A stretch of DNA of 51,826 nt from an uncultured Dysgonomonas sp. (GTDB taxonomy: Bacteria; Bacteroidota; Bacteroidia; Bacteroidales; Dysgonomonadaceae), in the NCBI GenBank assembly GCA_945273835.1, contig CALYPL010000014.1, forward strand, positions 1 to 51,826. The letters are read 5' to 3'. Within the stretch, counting starts at the first letter, position 1. Every line of letters starts with the position of its first letter. The notes under the pieces were generated by a model. The model made no database searches. It had not been told where the DNA came from and saw nothing but the letters and a program-made list of their open reading frames with translations. Both the position numbers and the translations under genes were made by a program. Shown piece after piece: positions 3-9,604 of this stretch.

Positions 3-341
3 CCGACTTATATTAACAAAATTATCTTCTTTCCGTCTAAAAAAATATACGGATGATATGATCTCGCAACCTCCGACAACTTTTTTAAGTTCGACCTCGT
101 CATCTATCAATTCAATTTTGCAATATAGATTTAATTCGTAAGGTTTTGTATAGAAAAAACTTTCTATTGCTCTCGAATAGGCTATTGGGGCATTGTATGA
201 TTTTAATTCGTCAATTATATTATACAATGTCGCTCTACTCACTCCAATTCGCTTCGATAATAACTCCGGATTGCCGGTTTTTCTTTCCTTAATCAACTTA
301 TGTAAAACATTGATTCGTTCCATTGTTTTGAAAAAATCCAT
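3..341 (-). CDS. Small HTH-domain protein with a double-glycine leader-type motif (3' end outside window)
   Basis: The open frame starts at the ATG complementary to 339-341 and is still open at base 3, so 113 residues are visible and the C-terminus is missing. Residues 1-65 look like a small winged HTH (MDFFKTMERINVLHKLIKER, then KRIGVSRATLYNIIDELK as recognition region), followed by SFFYTKPYEL. Residues 84-91 read ELKKVVGG, with E at -8, L at -7, V at -4 and GG at -2/-1. This is the classical leader pattern cut by C39 peptidases, and it is followed by CEIISSVYFF. The gene begins 17 bp after the C39 exporter on the same strand, so it probably belongs to that operon. Similar small HTH proteins are known to me beside Bacteroidota peptide exporters. 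Whether this one is a regulator, a secreted substrate or both is inference. A second start at Met7 is possible. Confidence 0.65.
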   Translation of the reverse strand, partial: MDFFKTMERINVLHKLIKERKTGNPELLSKRIGVSRATLYNIIDELKSYNAPIAYSRAIESFFYTKPYELNLYCKIELIDDEVELKKVVGGCEIISSVYFFRRKEDNFVNISR

Positions 342-358
342 AGCTGTAATTCTTTTAG

Positions 359-2509
359 TTAAACTATCGGTATTTGTTTTTGCCACATGGCATAATATCG
401 CGTGCCTTCACGGTACAATTCTATATGTGTGCCTTCCTCAATAAGTTTTCCTTGTTCCAGTATCACAATTTTATCGGCCGTCATAACTGTGCTCAACCGA
501 TGGGCTATAATAATAACGGTTTTACCTTGCCTGTTAAAATCAAGTATAGCCTGTTGTACCTGATGTTCGGATTGCGAATCGAGCGAAGATGTGGCTTCAT
601 CGAGAATCAATATTTCCGGGTTTCGATATAAGGCACGGGCTATAGCTATGCGCTGCTTCTCTCCTCCCGACAGACCGACACCGTGTTCGCCTACATGCGT
701 GGTAAATCCTTTTGGCAATTTTTCTATAAAAGGAAGTATTCCTAAATTCTTACATATAGTTACGATTCGCTCCATATCGGGGTTGAACTCGCCCAACGCG
801 ATGTTCTCAATCAGCGTTCCTGAAAACAAATCGAGCTGCTGGGGGACAGTCGCCACATGTTCGCGCATACTGTTGTTACTGAAATAGTCGAGGTTATGCT
901 CTCCAATGTATATTTTCCCGCCATTAAGGTTATATAGCTTCTGTAACAATACGGCGAGCGTAGTTTTTCCCGAACCGCTTTCGCCTATCATAGCTGTTAT
1001 TTTGTTTTTAGGTATTGTCAGGCTAAAATCATCAAAAACCTTGGTACGAGTGCCATAACAAAACGATATATGTTCAAAACTGATATCTCCGTTCATTTTT
1101 GCCGAAAATTCAATCTTGTTTTCTTCATCTTCGCGTTCCAAATCCATAATCTCGAACAGACGGTCGGCGGCAATCAGAGCATTCTGCACTGTTTTGTTCG
1201 CCCCTATCAGGGACGTCACAGGCCCGGTAAAATAACCGATAACAGCATAGAAAGAGAATAATGCTCCAGGAGTTATTTCGTTATCGATAACAAAGTATGA
1301 ACCAATCCATAATAGTATAATTGTGAACAGGAATGTTACAAAAGCGGTACTTTCATTCGAAAAAATAGAGTTTACACCTGAACAATATATGGTATTCAAC
1401 AATTTAATAAAACGGGTTTCGGTTTTTAAGTTAGCAAAATCCTCAATTCCGAATTGTTTGATTGTCTTAACCGAGTTTAAAGACTCTACTAACTGGCTTT
1501 CCAAATCAGCAGAGTCTTCCATTACTTTGCGTTCTTGTTTTTTATTAAGTCTGTTTATTGTTAAATAAATAATTAGATAAAAAGGGATAATGATAAGCAT
1601 TATAAGTGCCAGCTTCCAACTAAATACAAACATTAGTATAAAAGAGAATACAACGATCATTAAATTTACTATTAACGAAATAGACACATCGTTAATAAAT
1701 ACCCTTATTTTAACAGCATCGTTAACTCTTGAAATAATTTCACCCACACGCATGGTATCGAAAAAGCGTTGGGGAAGTCTGAGTAAATGTTTATAATAAC
1801 CCAATATCAAACGAGCATCTATCTGTTGTCCTGTATTGAGCATAAACAGATTTTGCAAGCTCCCCAGCACTAAACGCAAGAGCAGAATAATAAGCATGCC
1901 TACACTCATCAGGTTGAGCAGATTCTTATTCCCATCAACAAGTACGAAGTCTGTTATCTTCCCGATATATATGGATGTTGACAAACCCAGCGCCGTGTAT
2001 ATGGCTGCACCCACAAGGCATTGTATAAGAATACTTCGATGAGGTTTGATCAGGTAAATGAAACGGGCAATATTAGATACCTTATCATTCTTCACAGCGA
2101 AATCTTCACCCGGAACAAGTAAAATGAGTACACCTGTCCATATTTTAGCAAAATCATCAATCGAAATCTTATGTATCTGTCCGTCTCCGGGGTCCATATA
2201 TCGCACCAACTTATCTGAAACAGCATATATAACTACATAATGTTGTAATACGTCTTTTACTAAAACATGGGCTATTGCGGGTAACGGAATTTTAGGTAAT
2301 GAATCTACGCCTCCCTTTACTCCTTTAGCTGTAAAACCGAGCTGCTCGGCTGCTTTAACAAGCCCCAAAGCATTTGTTCCTTTTTGGTCTGTTCCGGCTA
2401 ACTGACGAATTCGGGCAACTGGTAGCCTTAATTTATAGTGTTCGGAAATCGATGCAAGACAAGCTGCTCCACAATCAGTTATATCTCGTTGTTTAATCTT
2501 TATTCCCAT
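359..2509 (-). CDS. Peptidase-containing ABC exporter (C39 peptidase, TMD, NBD; PCAT type)
   Basis: Of 716 residues, 1-130 form a C39 peptidase that should remove double-glycine leaders: QRDITDCGAAC carries the catalytic Cys13 and the oxyanion Gln7, and QHYVVIYA plus the following RYMDP supply His and Asp. Residues ~150-430 are the transmembrane domain, with several hydrophobic helices. The C-terminal ATPase has Walker A GESGSGKTT, signature LSGGEKQRIAIARAL, Walker B ILILDEATSSLD and H-loop AHRLS. All key residues are present, so the protein should cut and export peptides through the inner membrane. It overlaps the upstream HlyD gene by 17 bp and precedes the HTH/GG gene by 17 bp. No obvious short precursor gene is visible in the window, so the substrate is unknown. 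The family call is certain. Confidence 0.96.
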   Translation of the reverse strand: MGIKIKQRDITDCGAACLASISEHYKLRLPVARIRQLAGTDQKGTNALGLVKAAEQLGFTAKGVKGGVDSLPKIPLPAIAHVLVKDVLQHYVVIYAVSDKLVRYMDPGDGQIHKISIDDFAKIWTGVLILLVPGEDFAVKNDKVSNIARFIYLIKPHRSILIQCLVGAAIYTALGLSTSIYIGKITDFVLVDGNKNLLNLMSVGMLIILLLRLVLGSLQNLFMLNTGQQIDARLILGYYKHLLRLPQRFFDTMRVGEIISRVNDAVKIRVFINDVSISLIVNLMIVVFSFILMFVFSWKLALIMLIIIPFYLIIYLTINRLNKKQERKVMEDSADLESQLVESLNSVKTIKQFGIEDFANLKTETRFIKLLNTIYCSGVNSIFSNESTAFVTFLFTIILLWIGSYFVIDNEITPGALFSFYAVIGYFTGPVTSLIGANKTVQNALIAADRLFEIMDLEREDEENKIEFSAKMNGDISFEHISFCYGTRTKVFDDFSLTIPKNKITAMIGESGSGKTTLAVLLQKLYNLNGGKIYIGEHNLDYFSNNSMREHVATVPQQLDLFSGTLIENIALGEFNPDMERIVTICKNLGILPFIEKLPKGFTTHVGEHGVGLSGGEKQRIAIARALYRNPEILILDEATSSLDSQSEHQVQQAILDFNRQGKTVIIIAHRLSTVMTADKIVILEQGKLIEEGTHIELYREGTRYYAMWQKQIPIV

Positions 2510-3647
2510 CTGTTATTATTTTAGGATTTATCCAGTTATCAATCTTATCAAATAATAGCTGCCATAGGCTGCGTCGTGATAGGTAAAAACGAGCTGTTGT
2601 TGTCATTCCTTTTTTTATATTACCTCTGTATCCGTTTGGTAATTCTAAATAATGCTTATCTAACAAACATCTTACTCTAAAAAAGGGCTGTTCATTAATC
2701 TGCACTATATCGGGAATAATTTCTGTTACCTTGCCATGTAGTAAGCCCCATTGCTGATAATTAAAGGCATCCATCTGAAAGTTTACATCCTGAAATATCC
2801 GCATATAGCCGATATCGGCTGGATTAACGTAACATTCAACCAAAAGGCTGTCAGAAGATGTTATCTGCGCAATTGATTGTCCCGGAGTAATAAAGTTACC
2901 TACCTGCATACCTATATATTGAACAATTGTGCCGGATACAGGGGCAGTTATTACGTATTGGCTTTTTCGTTTTTCTAATTGTAGAAGTTGTGACAATAAA
3001 TCCCGATTCTCATATTCAAGCCGTGTTTTTTCTGCTTGCCAAAGGTTAGCTTGTTGTTGCTTTATCAAGCTCACTTGTGATTCTGCTGTTTTATAGCGAC
3101 TCTCAGCTTGCTGAAATTCAAATTTAGTTTCTACCCCTTTATCATAGAGTTTCTTTGACACTTTATATTCATTGTCAGCCTGTCTGAATGAAATTATTTG
3201 CTCTGACAGCTTTGCTTCATAATGTGCTTTTTCGGTACGGTATTTGGGTGTTTCAATTAAACTGCTACCTGCCAACAATTTATCTATATCTGTGATAAAT
3301 TGATTATTCTCAAATTGTTTTTGTTCAAGCCTGTATATTTGTTCGTCTATTTCGTCTGTTTTTAACCTGATAAGGGTGTCTCCACTGTTAACGGTTTTAT
3401 TTTCACAAAGGTATATTTCTGCAACTTCTGCATATATTGCTGATTGTAAGCTATTATTTTCGTTAGGGCTGCGTATTGTGCCTCTGCTTTGTGAAGTTAC
3501 ATCTATATTAATGAAGGGTAAACAAACGAAGAAAGCCAGTAAAGAAATAATTATTATTAGATAAATACCTTTAGATTTGATTTGACGTTTTACCCAATGT
3601 TTCTGGACCGTGTTTTCTTGTATCTCAACAGGGAATAATTCTTTCAT
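2493..3647 (-). CDS. HlyD-family periplasmic adaptor of peptide exporter
   Basis: The 384-residue protein has a cytoplasmic N-terminus, one membrane helix at about residues 28-48 (GIYLIIIISLLAFFVCLPF), a biotinyl-lipoyl-like half, a long coiled-coil hairpin at ~105-225 rich in Glu, Gln and Lys, a second lipoyl half (ITAPVSGTIVQY) and a beta-barrel region. This is the usual adaptor that links an inner-membrane ABC exporter to an outer-membrane TolC channel. It is the first gene of the cassette and its stop overlaps the C39 exporter. No TolC gene sits with it, so the outer-membrane partner must be elsewhere, possibly one of the two TolC-family genes in this window. A candidate promoter box lies 55 bp upstream. 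Confidence 0.93.
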   Translation of the reverse strand: MKELFPVEIQENTVQKHWVKRQIKSKGIYLIIIISLLAFFVCLPFINIDVTSQSRGTIRSPNENNSLQSAIYAEVAEIYLCENKTVNSGDTLIRLKTDEIDEQIYRLEQKQFENNQFITDIDKLLAGSSLIETPKYRTEKAHYEAKLSEQIISFRQADNEYKVSKKLYDKGVETKFEFQQAESRYKTAESQVSLIKQQQANLWQAEKTRLEYENRDLLSQLLQLEKRKSQYVITAPVSGTIVQYIGMQVGNFITPGQSIAQITSSDSLLVECYVNPADIGYMRIFQDVNFQMDAFNYQQWGLLHGKVTEIIPDIVQINEQPFFRVRCLLDKHYLELPNGYRGNIKKGMTTTARFYLSRRSLWQLLFDKIDNWINPKIITDGNKD

Positions 3648-6001: not shown

Positions 6002-6919
6002 TTAGAAAAAACCTGCAGCTGTGTTCACATCTTTATAGTAAAACATATTATTCAGCACTGCTTCTTTAATAGAATATTTATAAAAACTTCTTTCTTTTAA
6101 AATCGACTTAAATAGCAATTCTTGCTTTTCCTTATCTGTACCTCCCTGCTTGTTCAAACAATTAAGGTGATTCAACAGCATATCATAATAATGCGTCATA
6201 TAATAAGTTTTATAGCTTTTCTTACCATCTTCTTTAGGAATATTTACACCAAAATCTAAAAACGAAAAATCGGTGTAGTAAAAATAAGGTTTTCCATCAA
6301 ATTTCGGAACTTCCAAAATATATCTATGTGCCAGTCTGGTGTTAGACGGTTTTTGCTCAATGACAAGAGAGTAAATCGGTCCGCAACACTGCTCCATACA
6401 CCGAAGGAAGAGTATACCTTTTTCAGTCGAATCATGCAGATTATACTCCGATGTATTAAAATTATAAGAGGAGTGGCTCGACGGCTTATTCTTGTTGGTT
6501 ATACTATTGAAGAGCATTCCGTAATATGAGTCCACAAGCACATAATGCGTAATCTGCTGATCCATGATAGACTTCAATAAATCTCGATTATTAACAGGAT
6601 TTTTTTTGTTCAGATTGTCACTAATGGATTTAATTGCATAGATGTATTTTAATGTCACCTCATCCGGTAATGTTAAATACTTTTTATTCAACAAAATATT
6701 TTTTGGAGTAACGGTCTGAATAATAAAATCGGAGGCTGACTTTAATTCGTCAGGAAAATTCTTATTCATATCCCGAACTTCTTTTTTTGTCGGATTCTCT
6801 ATTGACTCGTAACTGTTATAAACTTTACCAAGGTTTATTAGCTTATCATTCACTTCCTGCGAAAGTAATTTACCTGTTAAAGCCAACACTAAAATCATTC
6901 CTAATACTATCTTTTTCAT
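6002..6919 (-). CDS. Secreted protein of unknown function
   Basis: The 305-residue protein has a clear Sec signal peptide (MKKIVLGMILVLALTGKLLSQE, cleavage near residue 20), so it should be periplasmic or surface exposed. I do not recognise the family. The mature part is rich in Lys, Asn and Tyr, with a MEQCCGPIYSLVIEQKP segment and many aromatic residues toward the C-terminus. It stands alone, with a plausible promoter upstream and no operon partner. Confidence 0.75.
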   Translation of the reverse strand: MKKIVLGMILVLALTGKLLSQEVNDKLINLGKVYNSYESIENPTKKEVRDMNKNFPDELKSASDFIIQTVTPKNILLNKKYLTLPDEVTLKYIYAIKSISDNLNKKNPVNNRDLLKSIMDQQITHYVLVDSYYGMLFNSITNKNKPSSHSSYNFNTSEYNLHDSTEKGILFLRCMEQCCGPIYSLVIEQKPSNTRLAHRYILEVPKFDGKPYFYYTDFSFLDFGVNIPKEDGKKSYKTYYMTHYYDMLLNHLNCLNKQGGTDKEKQELLFKSILKERSFYKYSIKEAVLNNMFYYKDVNTAAGFF

Positions 6920-7624: not shown

Positions 7625-9604
7625 ATGAGACTGGATTTAAGTTCACAAATAGTGTTGGACCGTGTGCCTCAACGCTATTATCGTCCTGAAAACGAGTTCG
7701 AGCTTTCAGTGCTTACGCGCTACGAGAAAGTGCCCACTCACATTTTCGAGTCTGCTGCCGAAGCATCTGTAAAGATTGCCAAAGACATTGCTTCGAAAAT
7801 CAAAGCTAAGCAAACATCCAAAACTCCTTTTGTCCTGGGGCTGCCCGGAGGTCATTCACCTCAAAGCATCTATCAAGAACTCGTGCGCTTGCACAAAGAA
7901 GAAGGGTTGAGTTTCAAAAACGTAATCGTATTCAATATTTACGAGTTCTATCCACTACATCAAAACAACGGTAATCTCAATTTATTAAAAGATTTACTGT
8001 TAGATCACATTGATATAGATCCCAACAACGTTCATTCACCCGACGGAATGGTATCCAAAGATCAGGTTTTGAACCATTGCCGTCAATATGAACAACAGAT
8101 ACGTCAGGCAGGAGGTCTCGATTATGTACTGTTAGGATTAGGTCGCAGCGGTAACATCGGACTTAATATGGCAGGTTCGAGCATGAACTCACAAACACGC
8201 CTTGTGTTACTCGATGTACAATCTAAAAAAGAAGCCGTAAATACGTTCGGATCGTTGGATAAAGTACCTTCAAGTGCCATCACAATGGGTATATCCACCA
8301 TCATGAAAGCAAAAGAAATTGCATTGGTGGCATGGGGCGAAGACAAATCCAAAAGCATTGTAGATGTAGTTGAAGGACCACTTTCAGACTCCATCCCTGC
8401 CTCTTGTTTGCAACACCACGACAATGCCCAAGTTATTATTGATCTGAATGCTGCTTACGGTCTGACTCGCATCAACCGCCCGTGGCTGGTTACCAATTGC
8501 GAATGGAATAACAAACTAATTCGCCGTGCCATTGTTTGGTTATGCCAAAAATTAAACAAGCCAATTCTGAAATTGACCAATAAAGATTATCAGGAGAATG
8601 GATTAGAAGAATTGCTTTCCATTTATGAATCGGCTTACAATGTGAATATCAAAATATTCAACGATTTGCAGCACACCATCACAGGATGGCCGGGAGGAAA
8701 ACCCGATGCTGACGACTCGAACCGTCCCGAAAGAGCTAAACCATACCCTAAACGTATTATTGTATTCAGTCCGCACCCTGACGATGATGTAATCTCCATG
8801 GGAGGAACATTCAAACGTCTTGTGGATCAGAAACACAATGTGCATGTAACTTACGAAACTTCAGGGAATATTGCCGTAGGCGACGAAGAAGTGATCCGAT
8901 ATGTTTCATTGCTTGAGGATGTACGTTCAAAATACGACCCGAACAATGAAACGATGAAAAAGAAATATGCCGAGATATTGAAATTCTTACTTCACGATAA
9001 AAAAGAAGACGATATTGATACGCCGGACGTGCTGTTCCTCAAAGGTCATATACGCCGACAAGAGGCTACCACCGCCGACAGGTATATAGGAATGGACGTT
9101 AAGAACGTAACTTTCCTTGATTTACCATTTTACGAAACAGGTCGCATAAAGAAAAACCCTATTTCGGTAACTGATGTCGAGATCGTGAAAAAACATCTTG
9201 AAAGCATTAAGCCGCACGAAATTTTTGTTGCGGGAGACCTTGCTGACCCGCATGGTACACACAAAGTATGTCTCGATGCCATATTAGCAGCTATTGACGA
9301 ATTGAAAGGTGCTGATTGGCTCAAAGAATGCCGCATCTGGATGTATCGCGGTGCATGGCAGGAGTGGGATATAGACTATATTGAAATGGCAGTACCGTTA
9401 TCGCCCGAAGAATTGCGCTTCAAACGTAATGCCATTCTTAAACACCAATCACAAATGGAAAGCGCACCTTTCCTTGGTAACGACGAACGCTTATTCTGGC
9501 AACGCTCCGAAGAGCGCAACCGTGCCACAGCCGAGGTTTATCGTCAACTGGGATTGGCAAGTTACGAGGCAATAGAAGCCTTTGTGGAATATAAACCGCT
9601 ATAA
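7625..9604 (+). CDS. Fused NagB-like (degenerate) and PIG-L deacetylase protein
   Basis: Of 659 residues, 1-290 have the glucosamine-6-phosphate deaminase fold and ~375-600 a PIG-L/LmbE-type zinc deacetylase: SPHPDDDVISMGG with H384, D386, D387 and D388, and DPHGTH with H543 and H546. This fused architecture is known to me in Bacteroides, where it is annotated as glucosamine-6-phosphate deaminase. In this copy the NagB catalytic residues are gone. Relative to E. coli numbering, Asp72 is Tyr106, Asp141 is Ser175, His143 is Asn177 and Glu148 is Met182, in FNIYEFYPL and GRSGNIGLNMAG. The N-domain may therefore bind sugar phosphate without deaminating it, while the C-domain may deacetylate an N-acetylglucosamine derivative. 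A true nagB follows 77 bp downstream, which suggests a joint amino-sugar role. Substrate is inference. Confidence 0.9.
   Translation: MRLDLSSQIVLDRVPQRYYRPENEFELSVLTRYEKVPTHIFESAAEASVKIAKDIASKIKAKQTSKTPFVLGLPGGHSPQSIYQELVRLHKEEGLSFKNVIVFNIYEFYPLHQNNGNLNLLKDLLLDHIDIDPNNVHSPDGMVSKDQVLNHCRQYEQQIRQAGGLDYVLLGLGRSGNIGLNMAGSSMNSQTRLVLLDVQSKKEAVNTFGSLDKVPSSAITMGISTIMKAKEIALVAWGEDKSKSIVDVVEGPLSDSIPASCLQHHDNAQVIIDLNAAYGLTRINRPWLVTNCEWNNKLIRRAIVWLCQKLNKPILKLTNKDYQENGLEELLSIYESAYNVNIKIFNDLQHTITGWPGGKPDADDSNRPERAKPYPKRIIVFSPHPDDDVISMGGTFKRLVDQKHNVHVTYETSGNIAVGDEEVIRYVSLLEDVRSKYDPNNETMKKKYAEILKFLLHDKKEDDIDTPDVLFLKGHIRRQEATTADRYIGMDVKNVTFLDLPFYETGRIKKNPISVTDVEIVKKHLESIKPHEIFVAGDLADPHGTHKVCLDAILAAIDELKGADWLKECRIWMYRGAWQEWDIDYIEMAVPLSPEELRFKRNAILKHQSQMESAPFLGNDERLFWQRSEERNRATAEVYRQLGLASYEAIEAFVEYKPL

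Follow-up and report, generated by a model that had tools for sequence, protein, structure and literature searches.

Can a transcriptional regulator at the same time be a substrate of the exporter that is encoded beside it? This question is raised by one end of a 51,826-nucleotide stretch of DNA from an uncultured Dysgonomonas sp. (contig CALYPL010000014.1; hereafter the window), where the gene of a small helix-turn-helix (HTH) protein follows an ABC exporter with a C39 peptidase domain. An earlier note on this DNA proposed that the HTH protein itself is cut by the exporter. From sequence comparison and structure prediction, we favor, with moderate confidence, the reading that the HTH protein acts as local regulator in a class II bacteriocin-like operon and is also a substrate of the operon's exporter.

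The exporter locus at the contig end

The exporter lies 17 bp before the HTH gene and is complete, which had been noted earlier and is confirmed by the open reading frames (ORFs) and by matches to Peptidase_C39 (E 1.7e-33), ABC_membrane, and ABC_tran. The locus comprises the following features, with the evidence in brackets:

3 to 341, minus strand: HTH protein with a C39-type leader motif and a C-terminal tail (ORF reading, HTH_11 match)
150 to 335, minus strand: winged HTH domain, residues 3–64 (AlphaFold, HTH_11, conservation in GG and non-GG forms)
69 to 92, minus strand: leader motif ELKKVVGG, residues 84–91, with a predicted C39 cut after residue 91 (motif, model, family profile)
3 to 68, minus strand: predicted released tail of at least 22 residues (CEIISSVYFFRRKEDNFVNISR...), its end outside the assembly (ORF; pLDDT below 50)
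342 to 358, minus strand: 17-bp gap from exporter stop to HTH start (ORF coordinates)
359 to 2509, minus strand: peptidase-containing ABC exporter, C39 + TM + ABC, 716 aa (domain matches)
2108 to 2497, minus strand: C39 peptidase domain (no second PF03412 match in this genome at E ≤ 1e-5)
2493 to 3647, minus strand: HlyD-family membrane fusion protein, the likely exporter partner (domain scan)

The HTH ORF starts with an ATG at 341–339 and runs on the minus strand down to base 3, where it is open at the window edge with 113 aa visible. Since base 1 of the window is also the start of contig 14 (the genome comprises 2.19 Mb in 50 contigs), the C terminus of the protein cannot be read from the assembly. 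Apart from the query itself, a search of bases 1–1500 against their own genome returned a single match, 44 bp long and within the exporter. HTH_11 (PF08279) matches residues 11–53 with 26.6 bits (gathering cut-off 25). Farther into the window, at 7625–9604, a single ORF combines glucosamine-6-phosphate isomerase and PIG-L deacetylase domains.

Residues 84–92 of the HTH protein read E-L-K-K-V-V-G-G-C, and the earlier assignment of E to −8, L to −7, V to −4, and G to −2 and −1 is correct. The protein thereby presents the Gly-Gly (or GA/GS) of C39/PCAT substrates in G90–G91, the hydrophobic residue at −4 in V88, Leu at −7 in L85, and Glu at −8 in E84, and its gene directly neighbors a C39 exporter. 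Leu at −12 is missing (D at −12, I at −13), because the protein has one residue more in this region than most relatives. For ComA, the leader positions described are L−12, E−8, and L−7, and the groove of LahT150 takes V−4, L−7, and L−12, with E−8 being replaceable, according to the same account (PMC6363468).

An AlphaFold model from 13 sequences gives a confident winged HTH at residues ~3–64, the blocks that span residues 11–70 averaging a pLDDT above 90. It is followed by a short helix at 84–88 and by a pLDDT below 50 from residue 90 onward—values that, stemming from a 13-row alignment, do not prove disorder. In this model, the GG therefore does not belong to the folded wing; burial of the motif in the wing, named beforehand as grounds against cleavage, is thus not what is predicted. 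A PDB fold search gave 745 matches at E ≤ 10 and none at E ≤ 0.001. The best matches of the N-terminal part are weak and of the HTH_11/BirA-like winged HTH type (best E 0.046), so that both the Pfam match and the best PDB fold matches are held in common with HTH_11/BirA-like regulators. Such regulators are not known to carry a C39-type leader and tail.

A helix-turn-helix family in two forms

Relatives were collected in three rounds—from 11/101 genomes at the family level, 64/393 at the order level, and 60/395 at the phylum level, many weak matches of this last round sitting inside far longer ORFs—together with ten named loci. None was found in viral contigs. By removing rows that exceeded 80% identity or lacked a 3′ end, with the window protein being kept, the 137 sequences were reduced to 118 non-redundant members of one HTH family (labeled L with a number by locus), which comes in two forms. 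As read from the ORFs, many members end soon after the wing. In the other form, the wing is followed by a short acidic or hydrophobic stretch, then GG, and then a short tail. GG followed by at least 10 residues occurs in 49/118 members, a share that is not a prevalence, since A1 held 7/10 GG forms and A4 GG forms only. These 49 constitute the GG class in all context counts; the 69 others include members that end at or are cut near the GG, AG- and GA-type members (e.g., L201, L204, L211), and one truncated GG copy (L107:13595–13819) placed there by the rule.

A GG is found in the tail of 52/118 members, whereas shuffled tails give a mean of 13.8 and a maximum of 28 (2000 shuffles); the strict motif [ED]h..h.G[GA] is found in 24/118, with a mean of 0.31 and a maximum of 4 in the shuffles. 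Aligned on the GG, the 52 members show L/I at −12 in 37 cases, E/D at −8 in 40, L/M at −7 in 23, and I/V at −4 in 35. Leaders were also scored on a matrix from 70 conventional precursors of neighboring loci with the GG columns omitted. On this matrix, whose precursors had themselves been found with a pattern fixing −8, −7, and −4, the 49 HTH leaders reach a mean of 6.6 bits compared with −5.8 (SD 0.64) when segments are shuffled. In 41/49 HTH-GG proteins, the place anchored on the GG scores best, and 5 bits or more are attained by 32/49 HTH-GG leaders versus 8/57 non-GG tails (best place in each). By these sequence statistics, the GG block of the family follows the grammar of C39 leaders more closely than expected by chance. 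The window protein scores 3.9 bits, which is marginal (shuffle p 0.08), and its motif taken alone is only suggestive of something beyond chance. Neither the window protein nor any other protein of its genome matches the leader model TIGR01847, a model that, used as a control, reached its cut-off in just 1/14 control genomes; L107 scores 12.5 against the cut-off of 15.7, and one conventional neighbor, with 13.1, likewise stays below.

The two forms do not differ in how the HTH is maintained. Its column information correlates with 0.94 between GG and non-GG forms, and the recognition helix carries a mean of 2.02 bits in the former and 1.69 bits in the latter; being conserved alike, the HTH shows no decay into a mere leader. 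The tail evolves differently. Pooled pN/pS is ~0.83 for the tail versus ~0.32 for HTH plus leader (14 close pairs that share members and are hence not independent), and the rate of change climbs immediately past the GG. Between L105 and one copy of L106, 83% of the HTH part but 0/13 tail residues are identical, although the 13-residue tail of L105 may be incomplete, as this locus is open at a contig end. Within one genus, by contrast, L196, L198, and L199 have similar tails (RPxLLDGTxISLL, 69–94% identity). Tails of the relatives span 12–39 residues. With the window protein omitted, the median length of 48 tails is 20, compared with 37 for 74 cores of neighboring precursors; [GA]xxx[GA] is present in 15% of these tails and 81% of these cores, and the tails are enriched in F, L, and N relative to the cores. 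At the family level, the tails therefore lack the [GA]xxx[GA]-rich core of class II bacteriocins, and their shortness and different composition suggest that they are not the same kind of peptide as the precursor cores.

Several members deviate from this scheme. L091:9580–9927 and L092:1307–1660 have a common HTH-GG part and tails that diverge after GGVIFR in a way resembling a frame change, which looks like weak constraint on the tail. Extra downstream copies without the first HTH part and with the wing kept are present in L107 (13595–13819), L158 (9906–10187 and 11189–11371), and L159 (9274–9540), those of L107 and L158 also retaining GG and tail; such extra copies could represent duplicates in decay or precursors without the HTH. 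In L206:8758–9048 (G698) and L224:8404–8742 (G595), the HTH matches of family f142 contain two in-frame TAG codons, and the ORFs end early.

Exporters and precursors around the gene

A C39 exporter abuts the HTH gene (≤200 bp, same strand) in 20/49 GG members versus 4/69 non-GG members (p 4e-6). The four exceptions are L088 and L206, which have stop codons within the family match, L223, which diverges past the HTH, and L087, a 90-aa form with no stops reported. The link persists after clustering at 60% (15/36 GG versus 1/52 non-GG) and is gone after clustering at 50% (24 clusters) or 45% (16 clusters). On a tree of the HTH part—built on 66 columns, with a bootstrap that had not settled—no fewer than 27 changes are required for the GG label, and well-supported (starred) branches force at least 12 of them. 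All of 500 shuffles of the label on the tree lie above the observed 27 (mean 37.9), so that the label is partly inherited. In tests on tree-independent pairs, an abutting C39 exporter averages 4.3 in the same and 0 in the opposite direction of 9 (median p 0.125), a precursor nearby 3.3 versus 3.1 of 16, and either of them in the locus 2.0 versus 0.8 of 13. The exporter link is hence consistent, but its independence from ancestry is not significant, the tree-independent pairs being too few to confirm it.

Both HTH forms occur near bacteriocin-like genes, and under the rules applied, C39 and precursor are both missing for 9/49 GG members. The proposal of the earlier note is borne out in part: the GG block does recur as a family feature and is enriched beside C39 exporters, with some non-GG members abutting C39 and some GG members not. 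Approached from the exporter side, 0/20 exporter loci have an HTH neighbor. These loci (9 with C39 match ends in the profile like that of the window, picked by eye, and 11 others) were chosen where no HTH match had been listed nearby; because HTH loci were thereby omitted, the count shows no more than that exporters of this type can occur without the HTH protein beside them.

On the same strand and no farther than 1.5 kb away, 30/49 GG members and 18/69 others have a conventional GG precursor; applied to the opposite strand, this rule finds 0/118. A pattern scan of the whole window detects no short precursor gene. In the five relatives with the shortest tree paths to the window protein (L159, L094, L083, L205, L084), a GG-leader ORF directly follows the HTH gene within ~70 bp, and in each of eight scanned loci (seven distinct: L084, L094 = L157, L096, L158, L159, L160 from Pontibacter, and L161) a precursor is located 7–252 bp past the HTH gene. 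A first look had seen no precursor in L084 and L094, which was overturned by the rule-based scan (70 bp and 51 bp past the HTH gene, respectively). The lack of a precursor in the window is best explained by the contig end lying there. The statement that no short precursor is nearby therefore holds for the window itself; as an argument for cleavage of the HTH protein it is an artefact of the contig end and has to be rejected, with precursors being present in all other loci that were inspected by eye or scan. Judging by the five nearest relatives, a leader gene just to the left of the window, which had been considered evidence against cleavage, probably exists, and the motif in the HTH protein stays regardless. 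Leader residues of HTH proteins and precursors do not covary (30 loci, ten positions, all p > 0.1), which adds no support.

The HTH-GG arrangement recurs across Bacteroidota in bacteriocin-like operons, including those of small plasmids. Two complete named plasmids carry the set. Plasmid 11 of Persicobacter sp. JZB09, an unannotated record whose gene names reflect our reading of the ORFs, has HlyD, C39 exporter, HTH-GG, and two GG-leader ORFs in the order of the window. The annotated pAT7 of Aureibacter tunicatorum has HTH, TolC, HlyD, and a peptidase-domain ABC transporter; its HTH protein contains HINGG and a tail, and the gene is surrounded by four short GG-leader ORFs, three of them on the other strand. 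On a Bacteroides uniformis plasmid, the relative consists of the HTH only, and the annotation of the 9.2-kb stretch examined includes no exporter. In L196, L198, L199, and L201, all of one genus, a conserved block (TGTCTTAT...TTTTTAA..CTTATT-like) is situated ~150 bp upstream of the HTH start in otherwise diverged DNA. It is a possible promoter or operator, the evidence for an operator assignment being too weak to call.

Candidate functions and related systems

Because the GG block is a family feature that lies outside the wing and is enriched beside C39 exporters while the HTH is kept, the proposal that the HTH protein itself is cut by the exporter is well motivated by sequence and model. From the sequence we infer its cleavage, export, DNA binding, and regulatory consequence as follows. 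The operon would consist of HlyD, C39 exporter, HTH protein, and GG-leader precursors. Within the HTH protein, the winged HTH domain of the N-terminal part would serve as the leader, the short helix ELKK plus VVGG would be the C39 recognition and cleavage site, and a presumably flexible, fast-evolving tail would follow. The exporter would bind the helix and cut after G91, whereby the tail would be exported as a peptide and the HTH half would stay in the cytoplasm. Most likely, the use of this would be that exporter activity alters the form or amount of the regulator; the released peptide is possibly a signal. A bolder version, in which the tail acts outside as a species-specific signal, the HTH half remains, and each export event resets transcription of the operon, would be signaling by one polypeptide and is tentative.

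The motif might instead only mimic a leader, with the ELxxIxGG helix docking the regulator on C39 without productive cutting, so that precursors would compete, free the regulator, and let the cell sense its precursor load. The common grammar of HTH leaders and precursors, the retained HTH, and the near precursor in 30/49 GG members agree with this, as does the report that interaction with the substrate depends on the peptidase domain irrespective of cutting (PMC10986499). Docking, however, requires −4, −7, and −12 and not the GG, which is nonetheless kept, and tail change rises straight after it; the idea is considered rather unlikely. Alternatively, HTH genes could have taken a leader from a neighboring precursor gene, with the tail now drifting behind an ordinary regulator. 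The repeated gain and loss of GG on the tree (a minimum of 27 changes, 12 or more of them forced), the high pN/pS of the tail, the differing frames in L091 and L092, and the existence of non-GG members fit such a vestigial fusion. It accounts poorly for leader positions maintained across many genera, for tails about half as long as precursor cores that rarely contain [GA]xxx[GA], and for the similarity among the tails of L196, L198, and L199, and we regard it as unlikely. That DNA binding has been lost and the fold is now a leader alone, as in nitrile-hydratase leaders, would be in line with long leaders from other proteins being known (PMC2887384) and with the truncated copies of L107 and L158 keeping wing, GG, and tail; it is improbable, given that the recognition helix is conserved in GG and non-GG members alike. 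A coincidental GG in a mere regulator, the alternative offered in the earlier note, accords with the marginal score of the window protein but is contradicted at the family level by shuffle and matrix statistics, and a structural GG in the wing conflicts with its place outside the folded part of the model, which makes both exceedingly improbable.

The favored reading, a regulator that is also an exporter substrate, invites comparison with double-glycine (C39/PCAT) precursors such as bacteroidetocins, ComC, and class II bacteriocins. These have the same E−8, L−7, hydrophobic −4, and GG, adjoin a C39 exporter and HlyD, and continue past the GG with a variable peptide; their L−12 is found in most HTH-GG family members and missing in the window protein. 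The HTH-GG leader, however, has ~90 aa and a DNA-binding fold, compared with the 15–24 aa given for bacteroidetocin and class IIa bacteriocin leaders (PMC6671954), and, unlike class II precursors, it is followed by a short tail with few [GA]xxx[GA], with conventional precursors alongside in the relatives. Closest in kind are the NHLP and Nif11 (N11P) leaders, described as long leaders from another protein with a short variable suffix and a link to ABC exporters, their GG falling at around residue 83 or 70 on average (PMC2887384). NHLP is reported to have lost its metal-binding residues (PMC2887384), whereas HTH-GG proteins retain the HTH. Pfam, searched with the window protein, and NCBIfam, searched with six HTH-GG proteins, give no match to nitrile hydratase alpha or Nif11 and no model for the HTH-GG architecture, and six scanned window proteins include no modification enzyme.

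HetC/HetP of Nostoc is similar in having a PCAT beside a differentiation gene, and its authors suggest that the N-terminal part of a substrate is retained intracellularly, where it acts on a transcriptional regulator, the rest being exported (PMC10986499). The available text of that study describes no HTH protein with a GG site and identifies no substrate; as the HTH-GG leader is itself a DNA-binding domain, the idea becomes testable with purified parts. A survey of Bacteroidales RiPPs lists GG precursors together with PCATs and names one HTH gene as potentially regulatory (PMC10352776), and the main text of the bacteroidetocin paper uses neither "HTH" nor "helix-turn-helix" (PMC6671954). A full-text literature search, covering mainly papers outside subscription journals and judged by titles and abstract starts, found no description of an HTH-GG protein. 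What appears to be new is a C39-type precursor whose leader is a DNA-binding domain, seemingly intact. If the HTH protein is cut, export capacity and gene control would be united in one molecule, and Bacteroidota would gain a defined candidate family of peptide signals. The HTH-GG protein would also be of use as a marker for finding bacteriocin-like operons. In L106, whose 15-kb contig lacks a C39 exporter, two HTH-GG genes (2541–2870 and 6247–6558) lie in a lanthipeptide-like locus, one precursor of which matches the class I lanthipeptide leader model.
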